Below the pieces are notes generated by a model. That model made no database searches and had not been told where the DNA came from. It worked only from the letters and a program-made list of their open reading frames with translations. A program made the position numbers and the translations under genes. Shown piece by piece: positions 23,281-35,948 of a DNA stretch of 35,984 nt (the first letter of the stretch is position 1; each line of letters starts with the position of its first letter). The stretch is from Oceanospirillales bacterium (GTDB lineage: Bacteria; Pseudomonadota; Gammaproteobacteria; Pseudomonadales; Balneatricaceae), in NCBI GenBank assembly GCA_007693685.1, contig REDB01000143.1, positions 1-35,984 on the forward strand. Direction: 5' to 3'.

Positions 23281-25620
23281 ATGAGTTTACAAAAAAAGCT
23301 GCTATTCATCATCATGGTATTAGCCTTATTGGCAGCGGTTACAGCCAGTGTGTTGATTAGTACAGCGGCTCTAAGGGCTGGCGAATCCCTTCTGAGTGAT
23401 CAAGCACAGCTTCGTGTTGAGATGATTAGTAACTCACAAGAGCAACGCTTAACAAGTTATCTGTCAGTGATAGAGCAGCAGGTTGTTAATCATGCCCAAA
23501 GTGTTCAAGCTAGGAGAGCTGTGGCAGGTTTAGGTTCTGCGTTTCGTGGTTATCGATTGAATGCAGTGGTTCGTAGTCTTGAGGATGCAGATGAAACTGT
23601 TGCTGCGTTAAAAGAATACTTCAGATCGGGTTATGCTCAAGAGTATGCTCGTTTGAATCCCAATCAGTCTTTTGATTTTGCCAGCTACGTAGATTCATTA
23701 GATAAACCATCCTTAGTATTACAGTATTACTATTTAGTCGATTCTGCCGGCAGTTGGACTGACAAAGCCCTAGTTGAAGAGGGCGAAGATAGATCACGTT
23801 ACAGTATTGCCCATCGAGAGTTTAATGCAGCCTTGCGCGAGTTTTCGCAAGCCTATGGTTTTGCAGATCTTTACTATTTAGATGCACAGGGTAATGTGGT
23901 TTATTCACTAAACAAGTTACCTGACTTTGGTGTTTCAGTGGAACATCCTTTATTGATCAATACCGGCCTTCATCAAGTTTTTCAACAAGCAATCCAATTA
24001 AGCTCAGATAGGCAAGCTGCCTTTGCTGATTTTGCACCTTACCCAGCTGCGTTGAACCTACCGAGTGCTTTTATGGCCATGCCGATCTATGAGGTGGGAG
24101 AAACAGAGCCTGCCGGTGTGTTCGCCATCCGATTAGACACTCATCAAATTCAACAAACGTTATCTAATCAGCAAGATCGACAAGCGCTCGGACTAGGCGA
24201 TACGGGTGATACTTATTTGCTAAATCGATCGGGGGTGCTGTTGTCGAGTAAGCGCGAGTTTGATCAAAACACGAGTGAATTTATCGCTCGTCTAACAAGC
24301 TTAACCCCAGATCAAGCTAACTTAGTACAACAACGAAATACCCTATCCGGCATTGTAAGCCTCAATAGTGCTGCCATTCAGCAAGCTCTGTCTGGTGTCA
24401 GTGGAGTTGACCTATACAGTAATGCGCTAGATCAGCTTGTGATAGGCGCTTTTCAACCATTCGATTTTGGTGGGGAGCGCTGGGCGTTAATTACAGAAAT
24501 TGCTGCTGATGAAGCCCTAGCCGCAGTGCCAGAATTACGCAAAGAAGTGGTCAGTTATGCGATAGGTATTACCCTTGCCGTGTTAGCTCTGGCTTTTATA
24601 GCCGCATTATTGATAGCACGTTCTTTAGGTAGACCCGTTGAAGAGTTAAAAGGCAGTATTCAACGCATCCAGCAAACTCGCGATTTAACTCAACAGTGCC
24701 CATTGCAGGGTAAGGATGAGTTTGGACAAATTTCGACAGCACTAAATAGATTACTGCAAGATATCGCTCAATCAGTGACACAAGTGGGTAAAGCTGCTGT
24801 GGTCGTGCATTCATCTTCTTCCGATTTATTAAGAGGATCAGAAGCATCTCAGCAACTGTTGAACCAGCAAACTTTGCGTAACCAGTCAGCAGAAAATCTG
24901 CTATCACAATTGGTTAGCAGTGCGGGTGAGGTCAGTGATCAAGCTAGCACTACACACCATCTGACTCAAACCGCAAACCAAGAGATTGATGACAGTAGCC
25001 AAATTATTCACCGTGTTATTGGTGAAGTTCAAAGTATGGCGGATGGTGTCAGTGGGGCGGCGTCAACTATCACCCAGTTAGCACAAGAGTTTGATCAAAT
25101 ACGCCATGTACTTGAGGTGATCTCGCAACTCGCTGCACAAACCAATCTGTTGGCATTGAATGCCGCAATAGAAGCAGCAAGAGCGGGTGAGCATGGTCGC
25201 GGCTTTGCTGTCGTCGCCGACGAAGTGCGTGGTTTAGCACAGCGTTCGCATGATGCAACTGAACAAATTCAAGCTATTATTGATTCATTACTAGGTAGAA
25301 CGCAGAAGGTGGAGAGTTCGATGCAGACAGAGCAACAACGCTCTGTAGCATTAGCAAGCACTGCCGCAACTGCAGAAACGGCATTAAAAACCATCGGTGA
25401 ATCGTTACAGGCAATCGTGCGTGCAAATCAAGATATCTTAACCATTTCAACTGAGCAGAAAGGGATGACCGATCAACTTGCCAGTGTTCTTCAAGAAGGT
25501 TTTGAAAGTGCACGCATCACACAGCAGCAAGCGGATGAAAATGCCCGATCTAGCGAAAGTTTAGGACAAGTTGCACAAGAACTAAAAGAAACAGCGACAC
25601 AATGGAGAGTTGCTAAATGA
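23281..25620 (+). CDS. Methyl-accepting chemotaxis protein with large periplasmic sensor
   Basis: Transmembrane chemoreceptor that would control CheA through CheW. 779 residues: transmembrane helix 1 at about 7-28, a periplasmic sensor of nearly 400 residues (28-423, size and secondary pattern suggest a double Cache fold, not proven), transmembrane helix 2 at about 424-446, HAMP (about 447-500) and a cytoplasmic signalling domain. The hairpin tip with [18 protein letters not shown] and [15 protein letters not shown] lies near 615-660. No CheR-docking pentapeptide is seen at the C-terminus (ends QWRVAK). GAGGA precedes the ATG. The ligand is unknown; the ATGA-coupled dehydrogenase downstream hints at a hydroxy- or oxo-acid. 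Confidence 0.93.
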
Positions 25621-26884: not shown

Positions 26885-27877
26885 TTAATAGCGTCCTGTT
26901 TTCAAGAGCTGCACATAACTTGCCCGTTCGTAAAGTGTCGGGTCATTACTGTGAAGATGAGAAAGCACACCTCTGGCTTGCTCTAATGACTCATAAGGAC
27001 TTTCCTCTAACCAGTCACTGACTCCCTTCAGTATCGATTTGAGAGCGTTTGGACCTTGCTGAAGCAGTACGCTACAAAGATGGGTGACATCAGCCCCAGC
27101 CAGCAGCATTTTGACGGCATCATCTGAGGTATGAATACCACCCGTTGCTGCCAGTGTCAGGCGTGTTTTACCAAACAGGATTCCCAACCACCGCATACTG
27201 AGTAACGCGTCTTCTGATCGTGACAGATGAATGCTCGATTGAACTCGAAGCGTGTCAGGATCTATATCAGGTTGATAGAAGCGGTTAAATAGAGACACCC
27301 CGTTAATGCCAGTATCTTCAAGTTGCTTAACAAAATGCCCTAGTGCGCTGAAGAACGGTGATAGCTTAACCATAATAGGGCAGGTGACGGATTCACGTAA
27401 TGCCGAGATTAACTCGATGTAACCTTTTTCCATATCGCTGGCGCTATGCAATGGATCTGCTGCAACATTGTAAATATTCAATTCCAAGGCATCAGCACCT
27501 GCTTCAGTGAGTTGTTTGGCGATTTTGATCCAGCCATCTTGTGAAGTGCCATTAAGACTGGCAATTACCGGAATCGCCAAGCGCTGTTTAAGAGCGTGTA
27601 TTTGCTCTAGATATTGTTCTAACGCATGAGAAGGTTCAGCATGCAGCGGCAGAAAATGTGTCGCTTCGCTGTGACCTATTTCTCTCGATTCCAGCAGTTG
27701 TATCTGTCTAGCATGATGGCTATCCAATTCCTCTTCAAATAGCGAGTACATCACTAGTGCACTGGCTCCTGCATCTTCAAGTTGACAGCAAAGACTGACG
27801 TCACGACTCAAGGGTGATGCCGAGGGAACCAGTGGGTTGGCTAAGGTCATGCCCAGATAGTGTGTTTGTAGGTCCAT
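26885..27877 (-). CDS. Dihydroorotate dehydrogenase-like flavoprotein
   Basis: FMN-binding TIM-barrel protein of the DHOD superfamily, 330 residues. It starts MDLQTHYLGMTLANPLVPSA, has SLNGTSQDGW, a LELNIYN block, MVKLSP, NGVSLFNRFYQPD and a C-terminal phosphate-binding TGGIHTSDDA...LLAGAD region. Members of this branch are commonly annotated as DHOD-like and often sit next to nifJ; they are not the pyrimidine enzymes PyrD. A good AAGGAG site lies 6 bases before the ATG and the gene follows nifJ by 3 bases, so the two are co-translated. A role as an electron-transfer or reductase partner of the pyruvate enzyme is inference. Confidence 0.85.
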   Translation of the reverse strand: MDLQTHYLGMTLANPLVPSASPLSRDVSLCCQLEDAGASALVMYSLFEEELDSHHARQIQLLESREIGHSEATHFLPLHAEPSHALEQYLEQIHALKQRLAIPVIASLNGTSQDGWIKIAKQLTEAGADALELNIYNVAADPLHSASDMEKGYIELISALRESVTCPIMVKLSPFFSALGHFVKQLEDTGINGVSLFNRFYQPDIDPDTLRVQSSIHLSRSEDALLSMRWLGILFGKTRLTLAATGGIHTSDDAVKMLLAGADVTHLCSVLLQQGPNALKSILKGVSDWLEESPYESLEQARGVLSHLHSNDPTLYERASYVQLLKTGRY

Positions 27878-27880
27878 GAC

Positions 27881-30800
27881 TTACTCCTTCTCATCACTGT
27901 TGGGCTTGAGAGCAGCCAGTTGTTCATAGTGATGGTAGTGTCGCTGAGATTCTTGTTGTGATGCACTTAGGTATTTTTCTGCATCCGCTTCATGACTTCG
28001 CCAAAGCATACTAAAGCGCGTTTCACTACTGGTGAATTCCCGATAGGCAACGGAGGGTGGTTTACTATCCAGTTGCAGCGGATTCTCTCCAGTGGCTATG
28101 CGTCTTGGGTCATAGCGCAGTAATGGCCAATGACCACTTCGAATGGCTAAATCTTGCATATGATGGTTGTGCTTCAAGTCATTTCCCCAAGCAATACAAG
28201 GCGAGTAAGCAATGATCAATGAAGGTCCGTCAAAAGACTCAGCTTCTAAAAAGGCTTTTAGTGTATGTAAATCTTTAGCACCATAAGCGACCTGAGCTAC
28301 ATAAACATTTTCATAGCTCATGGCGATCATCGCGAGGTCTTTTTTAGCCGTTGCTTTACCGCCAGCAGAAAATTTTGCTACTGCGCCTCGTGGTGTTGCC
28401 TTAGAGGTTTGTCCGCCTGTGTTGGAGTAGACCTCAGTGTCTAACACTAAGATATTCACGTTTTCACCGGACGCTAACACATGATCTAAACCACCAAAGC
28501 CAATATCATAGGCCCAACCATCACCACCGATAATCCAGACGCTCTTTTTAACCAGTTGATCTGCTAGGGTTTCAAGCTCTCGAGCTAAGCTAGAGCTAGA
28601 CTGACTTAGCTGATTTCTTAGTAGCAAAACGCGCTGGCGTTGCTCATAGATTCCGGTTTCGTCACTTTGATCGGCATTAAGCAGAGTATCCACTAAGGCG
28701 CCGTCTAAATCCGGTCTAAGTTGTTCTAGTAGCTGCTGTGCATATCGAGCTTGATGATCCACTGCTAAGCGCATCCCCAAGCCAAACTCGGCATTGTCCT
28801 CAAATAACGAGTTGTTCCATGTAGGTCCTCGCCCTTCGCTGTTTTTACACCAAGGCGTGGTAGGAAGGTTACCGCCATAAATAGATGAGCAGCCTGTAGC
28901 ATTAGCGATTAACATACGATCACCAAAGAGTTGGCTAGCAAGTCTTAAATAAGGTGTTTCACCACATCCTGCACAAGCTCCAGAAAACTCAAATAATGGC
29001 TGAGTCAGCATCGCTTCTTTAATAACGCCAGTCCGAAGTTTAGTGCGGTCGTATTCTGGTAAGGATAAGAAGTAGTTCCAGTTCTGCTGTTCTTGCTTCA
29101 GTAATGGAGCGACGAGAGGTTCCATATTCAGTGCACGACGTCCCGGTTGAGTTTTATCCTTGATAGGACAGATGTCTACACACAAGCCGCAACCAGTGCA
29201 GTCTTCAGGAGCCACTTGATAACTGATGTGATAACCCTCTGGAAACTCTTTACCTTTCACAGGGGCATGCAGAAAACTTTCTGGTACTGACTGTTCAACA
29301 GTCTCCGGGTCAAAAATTTTGCTGCGAATGGCGCTATGAGGGCAAACCAGTGGGCATTTGCCACAATGAATACATAACTCGGTATCCCAAACTGGAATTT
29401 CTAGAGCAATATTGCGTTTTTCCCATTGAGCAGTCGCGGTTGGCCAAGTGCCATCATCGGGTAACTGACTCACTGGAATGAGATCGCCTTCACCGGCAAT
29501 TAATCGAGCGGTAATCTGACGCACAAATTCAGGTGCATGATCGGGTATTTTTGCAACCCTGTTCGCAACTTGATTTACGCTGTTAGGAATGGCAATTTCA
29601 TGAAGGTTTTCGGGAGCCAGATCGATAGCTTGGCAGTTGATCTCGGTGATTCGTCCACCTTTGCTACCATAGGTTTCCTCTACGGCTGATTTCATCGCTT
29701 GCAGTGCTGTTTCGCGAGGCAAAAGTTCAGTAATGGCAAAAAAGCAGCTTTGCATAATGGTATTAATACGCCGTCCCATCTCCAGTTTCTCAGCCAGTGC
29801 ATACGCATCAATGACATAGAGAGTAAGCTGTTTGTCGATTAAACTTTGTTGAATGGCAAGAGGTAAACTGTCCCAGACTTGATTCGGTGGTGTTGAGGTA
29901 TTCAGTAAGAATACGCCGTTGGGGGCAGCGGCGTTTAATAAATCTTCTCGTTCAAGGAAGGTCGTTTGGTGGCAGGCAACAAACTTTGCTTCATTTTCTT
30001 GGATAAGATAAGCAGAGCGGATAGGTTCAGCACTAAATCTCAGATGTGAGATGGTCATGGCTCCTGATTTTTTAGAGTCATAAACAAAATAGCCCTGTAC
30101 CGTTAAATCTGTTTGCTCACCAATAATTTTAATCGCATTTTTATTGGCACTAACGGTACCGTCTGCGCCTAAACCATAAAACAACGCGCTGGTCGCAGCT
30201 TGGCTGGCGCGTGTTCGAAAATCTTTATCCCATGCCAGCGATGTATGGCTTAGATCATCATCGATACCGATGGTAAAACCTTGCTTTAATACCGGTTCTT
30301 TTAGCATCTCGAAGATGGCTTTGATCATGCCCGGCGTAAATTCTTTTGAGGATAAACCGTAACGACCACCACAAATTTTCGGTAGCTGAGAGAAAGCAGC
30401 CTTGTCTTGACTCACTGCCTGAGCCAGACAGGTGACTATATCTTTATAAAGAGGTTCACCCTCACTGCCGGGTTCTTTACAACGATCTAAAACCGCAATG
30501 GATTGAATAGATGCTGGAATCAATTTAATTAGGCGCTCAGTATCCAAGGGACGGAAGAGGCGAACCGCTAACACGGCGGTTTTCTCTCCGATAGCGTTTA
30601 AATGATCCACGGTTTCTTGAAGGGTTTGCACGGCTGACCCCATCAAGATGATCAATTCTGTGGCATCAGCCGCGCCATAATACTCATAAGGTTGGTAATG
30701 TCGTCCAGTCAGATCAGCAAACGCCTGCATTACTTCGGTTAAGTGGGTGCTAAAGGCCTGATAGTAAGGATTAACAGATTCGCGAGCTTGAAAATAAACA

Positions 30801-31468
30801 TCAGGATTTTGTGAAGTGCCACGAATCACCGGATGATCTGGGCTCATCGCCCGTGCTCTATGTTGGTGAATACCGCTTTGATCCAGCAGTAACCGCATCT
30901 GCTCGTCACTCAGCGTGTCGATTTTGGCGATCTCATGTGATGTGCGAAAGCCATCAAAGAAGTGCAGTACCGGAATTCGACTTTTAAGCGAAACAGCTTG
31001 AGAGATCAGTGCCATGTCCTGCACTTCTTGAACAGAGTTAGATGCCAATATTGCAAAGCCGGTTGCACGAGCAGCCATTACATCACTGTGATCACAAAAA
31101 ATAGATAATGCCTGAGCGGCAAGCGAGCGTGCGGCAATATGAAATACGGTTGGCGTCAGTTCGCCAGCAATTTTGTACATGTTCGGCAGCATCAACAATA
31201 GTCCTTGCGATGCGGTAAAGGTGGTACATAAAGAACCGGCTTGCAGGGCACCATGAATAGTTCCAGCAGCGCCTGCTTCGCTTTGCATCTCTACGATTTT
31301 AGGAATACTACCCCATAGATTGGTGTGTCCTTCTGCGGATAGTGCATCTGCAACCTCGCCCATGACGGAGGCGGGTGTAATAGGGTAGATGGCAATGACT
31401 TCATTGGTGGCATGTGCAATCCGTGCTGCCGCCTCATTTCCATCTAGCGTCAACTGCTTCGGATTCAT
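27881..31468 (-). CDS. nifJ: Pyruvate:ferredoxin (flavodoxin) oxidoreductase
   Basis: Single-chain enzyme converting pyruvate and CoA to acetyl-CoA and CO2 while reducing ferredoxin or flavodoxin. 1195 residues, normal for the fused form. Order: N-terminal pyrimidine-binding domain (YPITPASVMGE near residue 30), central domains, two 4Fe-4S motifs (CIHCGKCPLVCP near 700 and CTGCGLCVDICP near 757), the proximal cluster Cys pair in CAGCGETPY near 830, and a thiamine-pyrophosphate region (GGDGWAYDIGFGG near 983, followed by SNTGGQTSKATPRGA). AGGAG lies 6 bases before the ATG. All cluster cysteines are present. The family is oxygen-sensitive, suggesting a facultative or low-oxygen lifestyle. Confidence 0.95.
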   Translation of the reverse strand: MNPKQLTLDGNEAAARIAHATNEVIAIYPITPASVMGEVADALSAEGHTNLWGSIPKIVEMQSEAGAAGTIHGALQAGSLCTTFTASQGLLLMLPNMYKIAGELTPTVFHIAARSLAAQALSIFCDHSDVMAARATGFAILASNSVQEVQDMALISQAVSLKSRIPVLHFFDGFRTSHEIAKIDTLSDEQMRLLLDQSGIHQHRARAMSPDHPVIRGTSQNPDVYFQARESVNPYYQAFSTHLTEVMQAFADLTGRHYQPYEYYGAADATELIILMGSAVQTLQETVDHLNAIGEKTAVLAVRLFRPLDTERLIKLIPASIQSIAVLDRCKEPGSEGEPLYKDIVTCLAQAVSQDKAAFSQLPKICGGRYGLSSKEFTPGMIKAIFEMLKEPVLKQGFTIGIDDDLSHTSLAWDKDFRTRASQAATSALFYGLGADGTVSANKNAIKIIGEQTDLTVQGYFVYDSKKSGAMTISHLRFSAEPIRSAYLIQENEAKFVACHQTTFLEREDLLNAAAPNGVFLLNTSTPPNQVWDSLPLAIQQSLIDKQLTLYVIDAYALAEKLEMGRRINTIMQSCFFAITELLPRETALQAMKSAVEETYGSKGGRITEINCQAIDLAPENLHEIAIPNSVNQVANRVAKIPDHAPEFVRQITARLIAGEGDLIPVSQLPDDGTWPTATAQWEKRNIALEIPVWDTELCIHCGKCPLVCPHSAIRSKIFDPETVEQSVPESFLHAPVKGKEFPEGYHISYQVAPEDCTGCGLCVDICPIKDKTQPGRRALNMEPLVAPLLKQEQQNWNYFLSLPEYDRTKLRTGVIKEAMLTQPLFEFSGACAGCGETPYLRLASQLFGDRMLIANATGCSSIYGGNLPTTPWCKNSEGRGPTWNNSLFEDNAEFGLGMRLAVDHQARYAQQLLEQLRPDLDGALVDTLLNADQSDETGIYEQRQRVLLLRNQLSQSSSSLARELETLADQLVKKSVWIIGGDGWAYDIGFGGLDHVLASGENVNILVLDTEVYSNTGGQTSKATPRGAVAKFSAGGKATAKKDLAMIAMSYENVYVAQVAYGAKDLHTLKAFLEAESFDGPSLIIAYSPCIAWGNDLKHNHHMQDLAIRSGHWPLLRYDPRRIATGENPLQLDSKPPSVAYREFTSSETRFSMLWRSHEADAEKYLSASQQESQRHYHHYEQLAALKPNSDEKE

Positions 31469-31679
31469 CCTAAACTCCTGTGGAAAAAACCTTTTGTAAC
31501 TTTAAAGCTAGTTGTAAAAAGCTTATTTTTCCAGTGGGTTTAGATGACGCAGATCATACTCAAACAGACAATGAGTCGAACTTGCTGTATGGTCTTAAAT
31601 CACCTTTATTTAATAGACACCATCAATCTAACGATTTTTGGTCCTTAATCTGCCAACTTAATTGTTGATAGAGAGAGTT

Positions 31680-31706
31680 CTTGCTGCTTATTCATAAGGT
31701 AGCAAG
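31680..31706 (+). promoter_or_regulatory. Near-palindromic hairpin before the monooxygenase gene
   Basis: CTTGCT (31680-31685) pairs with AGCAAG (31701-31706), and inside it CTTA (31687-31690) pairs with TAAG (31695-31698) around TTCA, with a small G/GT internal loop. The hairpin ends 11 bases before the AGGAG ribosome site (31718-31722). No T-run follows. As DNA it is a near-perfect 27-base palindrome that could be a dimeric repressor or activator site; as RNA it could modulate translation. The remaining 210 bases toward nifJ show no other clear element; I could not assign a promoter for either divergent gene. Confidence 0.45.
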
Positions 31707-31728
31707 TTGTCTTACCTAGGAGAAAATT

Positions 31729-33090
31729 ATCACTATTCGAGTAGCTATTATTGGTGCTGGCCCTAGCGGTTTAGCACAACTTCGTGCCTTTCAAGCACTT
31801 CAAGAACAAGGCGCCGACATTCCAGAGCTAGTTTGTTATGAAAAACAAGCCGATTGGGGCGGGCTATGGAATTACACTTGGCGAACGGGTTTAGATAAAA
31901 ATGGCGAACCAGTTCATGGAAGTATGTATCGATATCTCTGGTCTAATGGCCCTAAAGAATGCTTAGAGTTTGCTGACTACACCTTTGATGAGCATTTTGA
32001 TCAACCTATAGCATCCTATCCACCTCGGGCAGTGCTTTGGGATTATATAAAGGGTCGAGTGGAGAAGGCAGACGTTCGTCAATATATCCGTTTCAATACT
32101 CCTGTTCGACAGATCAGTTTTTCCGAACAAAGTCGTCAATTTACGGTGACAGCGCATGACCATGATAGCGAAGTGACCAGCAGTGAAGAATATGATCACG
32201 TTATCGTGGCATCAGGTCATTTCTCTACACCTAGTGTTCCATTCTTTGAGGGCTTCGAAGGGTTTAATGGTCGTATTCTTCATGCCCATGATTTTCGCGA
32301 TGCGCTGGAGTTTAAAGATAAGGATATTCTGCTGATTGGTAGTAGTTATTCTGCTGAAGATATTGGTTCGCAATGCTATAAATACGGCGCAAAAAGTATC
32401 ACTAGTAGTTATCGTAGTCGCCCCATGGGTTTTGATTTTCCAGATAATTGGGACGAGAAACCGCTTCTGATTAAGGTTGATAATGACACAGCCTACTTTG
32501 CCGATGGCAGCTCGAAACGAATCGATGCCATTATTCTTTGTACTGGCTATCTTCATCATTTTCCCTTTATGGATGAAGAGCTTCGCTTAAAAACCAATAA
32601 TCGTCTTTGGCCTTTGGGTCTTTATGAGGGTGTTGTATTTGTAGAACAGCCAAATCTGTTTTATCTAGGTATGCAGGACCAGTGGTACACCTTCAATATG
32701 TTCGATGCACAGGCTTGGTATGTTCGAGATGTGATATTAGGAAGAATTGTCGTTCCAGAGAAAGCGTTAATGGAAACCTCTATTCAGGAATGGAGTCAGC
32801 GCGAAGGAGCGCTAAAGAGTGACGAGCAAATGATCCGTTTTCAGGGCGAATACATTCAGTCACTTATAGAACAAACCGACTATCCAACGTTTGATATAGA
32901 GCGTGTAAATCAGATCTTTCTTAAGTGGGAACAACACAAACATGACGATATTCTTACCTTCAGAGATCATTCATATCGGTCTGTCATGACAGGTACTCAA
33001 GCACCGTCACATCATACGCCTTGGCTGGAAGCGATGGATGACTCTCTGGAAGCATACCTAAATCCACCCAATAGTGAGCTTGCTCAGTAA
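31729..33090 (+). CDS. tmm: Flavin-containing monooxygenase, trimethylamine monooxygenase-like (ATC start)
   Basis: FAD- and NADPH-dependent oxygenase, about 453 residues, very like bacterial Tmm/bFMO as I recall them from Methylophaga and marine bacteria; these oxidise trimethylamine to its N-oxide and can oxidise dimethylsulfide. The FAD loop GAGPSG is at 9-14, the FMO signature [11 protein letters not shown] near 180, and the NADPH loop GSSYSAED near 200. [21 protein letters not shown]-type blocks are highly family-like. Translation must begin at a near-cognate codon: an in-frame TAG at 31717 is followed only by ATT 31726, ATC 31729 and ATT 31735. ATC is 6 bases after AGGAG and gives (M)[10 protein letters not shown]. 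The first ATG (31924) would remove 65 residues and the FAD loop. Substrate is inferred from similarity. Confidence 0.85.
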
Positions 33091-34821: not shown

Positions 34822-35364
34822 ATGTCCAAAATTTTAATTGCCTATTCCACTACAGACGGCCATACCCTTGAGATCTCTCATCGACTAGGGAGTGTGATAG
34901 AGCAGCAAGGCCATAGTGTTTCGTTTATCTCTATCGATGAAGAAGTGGACATCGACTTAAATCAATTCGACAAAATAGTGATTGGTGCAAGCATTCGCTA
35001 TGGAAAGCACAGTAAGAAAGTTTATCGATTTATAGAGAAAAACTTGTCGGTTTTAGACAACAAACCGAATGCCTTCTTTTCCGTCAATGTTGTTGCTCGT
35101 AAACCAGAGAAAAACACACCCGAAACCAATCCTTACTTGAAAAAGTTTCTGCAGCAAATCCAGTGGCAACCCAAGGAGTTAACTGTATTTGCTGGAAAGA
35201 TAGATTATCCAAAATATCGCTTTTGGGACCGTCATATCATCAGGCTAATCATGTGGATGACGAAAGGACCAACGGATCCGAACGCTGTGATTGAGTTCAC
35301 AGATTGGGAACAGGTTGAGGCATTTGGACAGTGTATTGGCAAGATGGAATTAAAATTAAGCTAA
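34822..35364 (+). CDS. hemG: Menaquinone-dependent protoporphyrinogen IX dehydrogenase HemG
   Basis: Flavodoxin-like FMN enzyme oxidising protoporphyrinogen IX to protoporphyrin IX with respiratory quinones, without needing oxygen. 180 residues, as in E. coli (181). FMN phosphate loop YSTTDGHT near residues 9-16; the family blocks VIGASIRYGKH, FFSVNVVARKPEKNTPETNPY and the IMWMTKGPTD loop match E. coli HemG closely, the last two being in the long insert that separates HemG from ordinary flavodoxins. AAGGAG (34805-34810) is 11 bases from the ATG, a long spacing. Confidence 0.94.
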   Translation: MSKILIAYSTTDGHTLEISHRLGSVIEQQGHSVSFISIDEEVDIDLNQFDKIVIGASIRYGKHSKKVYRFIEKNLSVLDNKPNAFFSVNVVARKPEKNTPETNPYLKKFLQQIQWQPKELTVFAGKIDYPKYRFWDRHIIRLIMWMTKGPTDPNAVIEFTDWEQVEAFGQCIGKMELKLS

Positions 35365-35372
35365 TTTATTCC

Positions 35373-35948
35373 TTAAAACATAGCTCGATGCAACAAACCA
35401 AAATCTTCAAAGGTGTAGTCAGCTAAATGAGCATAGTCAGGTAGGCTCTGATAATTGATCAGGCAAGTCGGCATCTTGGCATTACGACCCGCTTGCAGGT
35501 CATATTTGTAGTCTCCAACCATCAAGATAGACTCTGTTGGTAATTTAAAGTGATCAGCAATATCCAGCAGGGCAGAAGGGTCTGGTTTAGGCTTAGATGT
35601 TTCTCTCGTAACAATGTGTTGAATGGGGATGGCATTGCGTTTCACTTTAACATGAGTCGGATGATGTGAGTTCCGAGTCACAATCGCCATGGGTATTTGC
35701 TTTACAAAACATTCATCTATAAATGAACGCGCACTGGGTATCCACTCACTACTATGAGCATCCTGCAATTCATGACGATGAATCACATCCATGGCATCTT
35801 GTTGTTGGTGTTCAGGTAACGAGTGTAAAAAAGCCAACACATCTTCATGATCAGGACAGCCGATCTCCTGCTTAATCGCCACAAAGTCGAGTGATGAAGT
35901 GACGAGAGTGCCATCTAGATCGAAAATAATGCCTTTGATGTGCTTCAC
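35373..35948 (-). CDS. HAD-family phosphatase, Gph-like (GTG start)
   Basis: Haloacid dehalogenase superfamily hydrolase of 191 residues. Motif I is FDLDGTL with nucleophile Asp10 and Asp12; motif II is the Thr-containing IVTRNSHH, the Lys motif is SKPKPDPS, and motif IV is VGDYKYDLQAG. The small helical cap between motifs I and II is of the phosphoglycolate phosphatase / beta-phosphoglucomutase type. The start is GTG at 35948, with AAGG 7 bases upstream. It converges with hemG with an 8-base gap. Substrate cannot be told from sequence; phosphoglycolate or another small phosphate ester is possible. Confidence 0.9.
   Translation of the reverse strand: MKHIKGIIFDLDGTLVTSSLDFVAIKQEIGCPDHEDVLAFLHSLPEHQQQDAMDVIHRHELQDAHSSEWIPSARSFIDECFVKQIPMAIVTRNSHHPTHVKVKRNAIPIQHIVTRETSKPKPDPSALLDIADHFKLPTESILMVGDYKYDLQAGRNAKMPTCLINYQSLPDYAHLADYTFEDFGLLHRAMF

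Follow-up and report, generated by a model that had tools for sequence, protein, structure and literature searches.

Translation of the trimethylamine monooxygenase gene (tmm) in the window, the whole 35,984-nucleotide stretch of DNA analyzed here, likely starts at an AUC codon (31729), judging from comparison with its relatives, in which the codon is conserved. A leader of about 168 nt and the AUC go together: both are present in the window, Nitrincola schmidtii, and four Pseudomonas genomes, that is, in all six known members of one tmm clade. An earlier note on this DNA had left three explanations for the absence of a canonical start codon, namely initiation at AUC, a recent ATG-to-ATC change that nearly silenced the gene, and a base error. 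The conserved leader, its link with the AUC, and the apparent AUC start of infC in Nitrincola are new with respect to that note. The features are listed in Table 1.

Table 1. Features of the tmm start region in the window
Feature	Position	Strand	Basis
In-frame TAG closing the frame just upstream of ATC	31717–31719	+	Frame translation, codon scan
Shine-Dalgarno AGGAG, 6 nt 5′ of ATC, spacer AAAATT	31718–31722	+	Sequence read
Proposed start codon ATC (AUC)	31729–31731	+	ATC in six of six clade members; mFMO residue 1 on gapless extension
tmm, trimethylamine monooxygenase, 453 codons and stop	31729–33090	+	NF058570, PF00743, 2xve/8b2d over 444 residues
First canonical in-frame ATG; a start there loses the FAD-binding loop	31924–31926	+	Codon scan; codons 2–65 under purifying selection
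Conserved 5′ leader (untranslated RNA and/or promoter-operator region), about 168 nt	31561–31728	+	blastn, alignment, identity, covariance model
Hairpin H1, CCATCAATC-TAAC-GATTTTTGG	31620–31641	+	Folding/alignment; two of nine pairs lost in the window versus most Pseudomonas copies
Hairpin H2, TCTGCCAAC...GTTGATAGA	31649–31672	+	Folding/alignment
Hairpin H3, CTTGCTGC...GTAGCAAG	31680–31706	+	Folding/alignment

The frame (31717–33090) opens with TAG GAG AAA ATT ATC ACT ATT CGA GTA GCT ATT ATT GGT GCT GGC and meets no further stop until 33088–33090. In the in-frame scan of 31717–31926, TAG 31717 and ATG 31924 are the sole stop and canonical start, respectively, and the 68 codons between them include no ATG, GTG, TTG, or CTG. 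The coordinates, the TAG, the start-free frame, and the AGGAG placed 6 nt before the ATC had all been described in the earlier note, and they hold on the codon scan. Its statement that a start at ATG 31924 deletes 65 residues including the FAD-binding glycines is also borne out, since the GAGPSG loop lies upstream of this ATG. When only ATG, GTG, and TTG are allowed as starts, the window tmm is listed as a protein of 388 amino acids, not 453, and the FAD loop is missing; standard start rules thus truncate genes of this kind. The N. schmidtii tmm (L174, 10821–12020) is listed as 399 amino acids without the FAD loop under the same rule.

The translation of the window tmm scores 825 bits against NF058570 (trimethylamine monooxygenase; curated equivalog cut-off, 675 bits), covering positions 1–442 of the 443 in the profile, and passes Pfam PF00743 (FMO-like). 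It aligns with the solved chains 2xve and 8b2d over 444 residues and with 6hns over 443. The former two are listed as flavin-containing monooxygenases and the last under "small molecule metabolism"; we take them to be Methylophaga mFMO and N. lacisaponensis NiFMO, respectively, to which the window enzyme is homologous over these 443–444 residues. The alignment with 2xve and 8b2d starts at chain residue 3, and on extension without gaps the residue read from the ATC falls on residue 1, so that the N-terminus read from the ATC fits the family, as the earlier note had expected. The FAD motif GXGXXG and the NADP motif GXXXS[AGS] are given for this enzyme class in a passage of PMC7688232, and both are found in the translation, as GAGPSG and GSSYSAE. 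The gene, which had been called trimethylamine-monooxygenase-like and was rightly so called in view of these scores and alignments, is by family membership most readily taken as a full-length, intact trimethylamine monooxygenase gene. In M. aminisulfidivorans (L055) and N. lacisaponensis (L095), by contrast, ATG occupies the start position of tmm, and the leader model finds no match.

The genome assembly that contains the window (2.85 Mb, 276 contigs, 92% complete) has one tmm match. A named relative is N. schmidtii NCAIM B.02626, whose Tmm protein is 98% identical and in which the 2.7 kb around the gene matches at 91%. Judging from the named relatives, the genome belongs to Nitrincola. Divergent from tmm, the minus strand of the window (27881–31468) encodes a single-chain pyruvate:ferredoxin/flavodoxin oxidoreductase (TIGR02176), adjoined by a gene with a dihydroorotate-dehydrogenase domain (26885–27877). 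In the window, a flavodoxin-domain gene (Flavodoxin_5; 34822–35364) separates an AAA ATPase gene from the one at 35373, and NmrA/NAD-binding, DUF2867, and NYN-domain genes are found at the corresponding place in N. schmidtii (L174, 13669–15972).

The codon in close relatives, which the earlier note had named as a check, is ATC in N. schmidtii and the four Pseudomonas genomes, giving ATC at the expected start in six of six clade members. The start region of N. schmidtii (L073) is identical to that of the window (GGAGAAAATTATCACTATTCGAGTAGC). Those of three Pseudomonas genomes (L021–L023) read GGGAGAAAT(G/T)TATCACGACTCGAGTAGC, and that of the fourth (L024) contains ATCATGACT. The codons flanking the ATC vary, with ATT, TGT, or TTT before it and ACT, ACG, or ATG after it. 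The Tmm proteins of the four Pseudomonas genomes are 88–90% identical to that of the window. L021 and L024 are titled as MAG, unlike L022 and the complete chromosome L023. The ATC is carried by three non-MAG records: N. schmidtii, Pseudomonas sp. MMS21 TM103, and the complete chromosome of Pseudomonas sp. CC6-YY-74. The C at window position 31731 thus recurs in five other assemblies, and a base error at this position, being very unlikely with ATC at the same place in five other genomes, was rejected. Since four-fold sites agree at only about one in three across the Nitrincola-Pseudomonas split, which is saturated, one third-position base kept across it would be weak evidence taken alone.

The six ATC copies form one clade (support 100/99 in an 88-row tree), separate from the other Nitrincola tmm included. 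This separation suggests that the gene moved between Nitrincola and Pseudomonas or reached both from elsewhere, and the ATC and the leader were presumably present in the clade ancestor. The clade has at least six members among relatives taken from the best 80 of 537 contig matches and the genome samples; protein searches found no further member in 390 sampled genomes of the order (next best, 75% identity) or in 398 sampled genomes of the genus Pseudomonas (next best, 71%). A single strong tmm match is found in G000, N. schmidtii, G397, and G399. Pseudomonas genomes G398 and G400 hold a second tmm (L133 and L132, respectively), 71% identical to the window gene; that of G400 apparently coincides with L068, where the start position reads ATG. 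Carriage of tmm or the leader by mobile elements was rejected: none of the 525 plasmid records with a Tmm protein match exceeds 80% identity, searches of plasmids with the leader find nothing for the window copy and a chance piece of 27 bases for the L022 copy, phages give no match to the leader, and viral contigs hold neither a relative of the Tmm protein nor a match to one start-region pattern.

A census of start codons was taken from 149 loci, of which 147 had a strong match; removal of 16 that were identical over the compared stretch left 131 distinct loci. ATG occurs within eight codons of the expected start in 119 of them, and TTG without ATG in seven, all 57–60% identical. The remaining five, with no ATG, GTG, TTG, or CTG within eight codons, are the window, N. 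schmidtii, and L021, L022, and L023 (entered as L128, L130, and L131), and all belong to the ATC clade. The sixth clade member, L024, is counted among the 119 for the ATG at its codon 2; from the tree as read by eye, this ATG would most simply go back to the ACG found in its three Pseudomonas relatives. The window tmm thus combines two marks of a non-NUG start, the lack of a canonical start at a conserved N-terminus and a near-cognate triplet conserved in relatives.

The position of the ATC among other near-cognate triplets should be noted. The frame of the window tmm also has ATT at 31726, 31735, 31747, 31750, and 31819, and ACG at 31885. AUU 31726 and AUU 31735 lie in frame near the Shine-Dalgarno sequence, and AUU is the start of infC and pcnB in E. 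coli according to a passage of PMC4245954, so that initiation at either of them, with the AUC as a bystander, would fit the Nitrincola sequences taken alone. The Pseudomonas copies, however, have TGT or TTT at 31726 and ACT at 31735, and AUU 31726 is only 3 nt from AGGAG. ATC 31729 is the only near-cognate triplet beside the Shine-Dalgarno sequence that is common to all six copies, and the 6 nt between GGAG and ATC match the distance at which ATG follows GGAG in homologues such as L003 and L043. Initiation at a neighboring AUU is therefore improbable.

Codons 2–65, which a start at ATG 31924 would leave untranslated, are under strong constraint. Between Nitrincola and Pseudomonas, dN in these codons is 0.035–0.049; dS is 1.3–1.9 in four of the eight pairs and not computable in the other four, and omega in the four computable pairs is 0.025–0.034. 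After codon 65, dS is not computable in any of the eight pairs. For the pair of the window and N. schmidtii, omega is 0.07 in codons 2–65 and 0.02 after them, and every computable pair falls within 0.02–0.07. The low omega suggests that the first 65 codons are very probably translated. A recent near-silencing change was rejected, since the ATC is shared by relatives across a split at or near synonymous saturation and the protein, including its N-terminus, has evolved at an omega of about 0.03. A gene decaying or silent after the loss of AUG would be consistent with the second tmm in G398 and G400, and AUC is an inefficient start codon. The frame is nevertheless full-length, the omega values are low in all computable pairs, no second tmm was found in four of the six genomes, and the leader is conserved. 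Decay is thus extremely unlikely.

The coding constraint lies after the ATC and not before it. In L021–L023, the frame is open for 33–35 codons upstream of the ATC, with an ATG at codon −31, yet nonsynonymous and synonymous codon differences in this stretch are 9:1, 6:1, and 6:1 in the three pairs, and no third-position excess is found there; an upstream in-frame start in Pseudomonas was rejected for this lack of a coding signal. In both Nitrincola species, TAG closes the frame with three codons between it and the ATC. In L024, a stop is located 20 codons upstream, and in-frame TTG and CTG are located about 16 codons upstream, between the stop and the ATC. Entry of translation from upstream, which would give a longer N-terminus in Pseudomonas and require frameshifting or reinitiation after a short ORF in Nitrincola, finds possible starts in these upstream ATG, TTG, and CTG codons. 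The window further has a TTG-led ORF of 12 codons (31681–31719), whose stop is the TAG next to the Shine-Dalgarno sequence; this stop lies 9 nt upstream of the ATC, and reinitiation could follow. Against such entry, in addition to the unconstrained upstream frame and the stops, a 1-nt indel between the two Nitrincola leaders, located just upstream, by reading breaks the short ORF, and reinitiation would still use the AUC. Upstream entry is thus very improbable. Given the in-frame upstream ATG in L021–L023 and the upstream TTG and CTG and codon-2 ATG in L024, the two Nitrincola species are the only members for which the AUC is a strict requirement.

With base error and recent silencing excluded by the relatives and by omega, initiation at the AUC remains of the three explanations in the earlier note, and the infC genes of Nitrincola, which apparently start at AUC too, lend it support. 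infC was found in 10 of the 11 Nitrincola genomes (L179, L180, and L182–L189, with L181 excepted). Before the conserved PPINEN, these genes read GGA GAT NNN NNN ATC AGG CGT, with the ATC placed where the N-terminus is expected and invariant in 10 of 10, while the preceding codon is ATT in six and ACT or GCT in four. Neither ATG nor GTG occurs in frame before PPINEN in the 10 genomes, and the only canonical-type codon there is an adjoining TTG or CTG, which is absent in G001. The invariant ATC, the variable preceding codon, and the lack of another suitable start suggest that Nitrincola infC most likely starts at AUC. The infC genes of the four Pseudomonas hosts (L175–L178) read GGA GTA ATC ATT ATT AAG CGT GAA ATG, with three consecutive near-cognate triplets shortly before ATG. 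By analogy with infC in the same hosts, a near-cognate start such as that of tmm is probably already accepted by their ribosomes.

Few bacterial non-NUG starts have been characterized experimentally, as stated in a passage of PMC5472188, which gives ATC as the infC start in Streptomyces and ATT as that in E. coli, and GTC as the start of Streptomyces sigR, which is repressed by IF3. The tmm start resembles those of infC, with its IF3 autoregulation, in that a near-cognate AUC or AUU lies behind a good Shine-Dalgarno sequence. It differs in that tmm encodes a catabolic enzyme, for which no feedback on IF3 is evident, and has a conserved leader of its own. The tmm start also resembles that of sigR, since both are non-NUG starts outside infC that are kept in several species; in contrast, the sigR start is GTC and not ATC, sigR encodes a sigma factor, and the control by IF3 shown there would only be presumed for tmm. 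Our literature search found no paper that brings together tmm, trimethylamine monooxygenase, and a start codon, and one that mentions both trimethylamine monooxygenase and a riboswitch.

The leader is conserved between the two genera. By blastn, the window matches the Pseudomonas loci from 31561 (L022, L023, and L024) or 31582 (L021) to 33068–33070, near the end of the gene; no match is found farther upstream than 31561. Leader identity between Nitrincola and Pseudomonas is 67–70%, versus 32–37% at the four-fold sites of the gene, and between the window and N. schmidtii, 97.6% versus 75%. Within Pseudomonas, the leader is more conserved than the four-fold sites in five of six pairs; in the closest pair, L021/L024, it is less so (88.8% versus 91.8%). 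Searches with a covariance model gave six full-length strong matches, one per genome, each directly before an ATC-started tmm (87 sources, with loci L101–L161 outside the one-by-one searches), with one extra partial chance match at window 24818–24844 (E 8.9). The 11 Nitrincola genomes gave two true matches and two weak ones (E 0.48 in G007 and 0.51 in G005), the four Pseudomonas genomes gave one each, and no leader beyond the known members was found under stricter filters in 398 sampled Pseudomonas-family genomes or 390 of the order. Within these sources and samples, occurrence of the leader before other genes was thus rejected, as strong matches stand only before the six tmm.

In the proposed structure of the leader, 95.9% of the cells are paired over the six sequences, and the three successive hairpins directly 5′ of the ribosome site preserve 93–98% of their pairs. 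The mean predicted pairing of H1 and H2 is at least 0.67 in all six. That of H3 is at least 0.94 in five copies; in L024 it drops to 0 in the aligned register, and H3 there is CTTGCTG...CAACAAG with one mismatch, versus CTTGTTG...CAACAAG in the other three Pseudomonas copies. Covariation is modest: three of 37 pairs are changed on both sides (as many in 50 of 500 shuffles), and the covariation score and the pair-type count are equaled in 12 and 470 of 500 shuffles, respectively. The z-scores of fold energy are −1.4 to −2.9. A proposed 5′ stem is inconsistent across the six copies by pairing prediction, and neither pairing between H3 and the 5′ block CTTGCTGT nor sigma-54 spacing is conserved, as judged by eye. 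Anti-Shine-Dalgarno pairing of four to six pairs is possible by sequence in the six leaders, with a predicted probability of at most 0.13; a switch of this type would be possible by pairing and improbable by energy, and is speculation. No Rfam 15 family matches the leader above noise, only microRNA models appearing far below their gathering scores, and a known RNA family was rejected on this ground. The leader is similar to the cis-regulatory leaders and riboswitches of Rfam in having hairpins and conserved single-stranded blocks before one metabolic gene, and unlike them in its lack of an Rfam family, its restriction to six known genomes, and the energetically improbable anti-Shine-Dalgarno pairing.

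These observations bear on whether the block works as RNA or as DNA. Palindromes bound by a regulator in a promoter or operator, with the AUC merely setting a low output, would be compatible with AUC initiation and are a realistic possibility: in Pseudomonas, near-perfect palindromes are formed by H2 and, in three of the four copies, by H1, and the fold z-scores and shuffle counts above are in line with it. Three hairpins placed in succession directly before the ribosome site, with most pairs kept, argue in the other direction, as does the absence of a sigma-70-like promoter in 31460–31760, the scan being limited to that type and other promoter types lying outside it. We infer that the leader acts as RNA, and regulation of tmm by the leader is plausible.

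As for the mechanism, the ordinary initiator tRNA would decode AUC 31729 as fMet, and the well-placed AGGAG would help initiation there. A passage of PMC4611024 counts AUC among the triplets that initiate translation in bacteria and among those against which IF3 discriminates; initiation of tmm should thus be weak and sensitive to IF3, rising when IF3 activity falls, as for infC. Expression of tmm would then be low or conditional. Hecht et al. are said to have found in 2017 that AUC initiates poorly in E. coli reporters. The sigR circuit indicates that a non-NUG start can be a working part of control, as described in PMC5472188. A more tentative and rather doubtful idea is that the leader and the AUC constitute an undescribed translational switch, in which Tmm is off by default and is turned on with a signal such as the substrate, another osmolyte, or low IF3 activity. 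The switch and the gene would have been passed between Pseudomonas and Nitrincola as a unit, with the weak start essential and retained though AUG is one base away. A BCCT-family transporter gene is located about 6 kb downstream of tmm in Pseudomonas TM103 (L170), and ORFs with an N-terminus like that of a BCCT transporter are found near tmm in the other three Pseudomonas loci; these neighbors give no more than a hint of osmolyte metabolism.

The conserved AUC start of tmm is likely a new case in a small known class. If true, it would add a metabolic gene to the few non-NUG cases (among them infC, pcnB, and sigR), with the AUC kept across two genera, over synonymous-site saturation or near-saturation, beside a leader that matches no Rfam family, and N. 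schmidtii, one of the carriers of the AUC-started tmm, is a cultured species.
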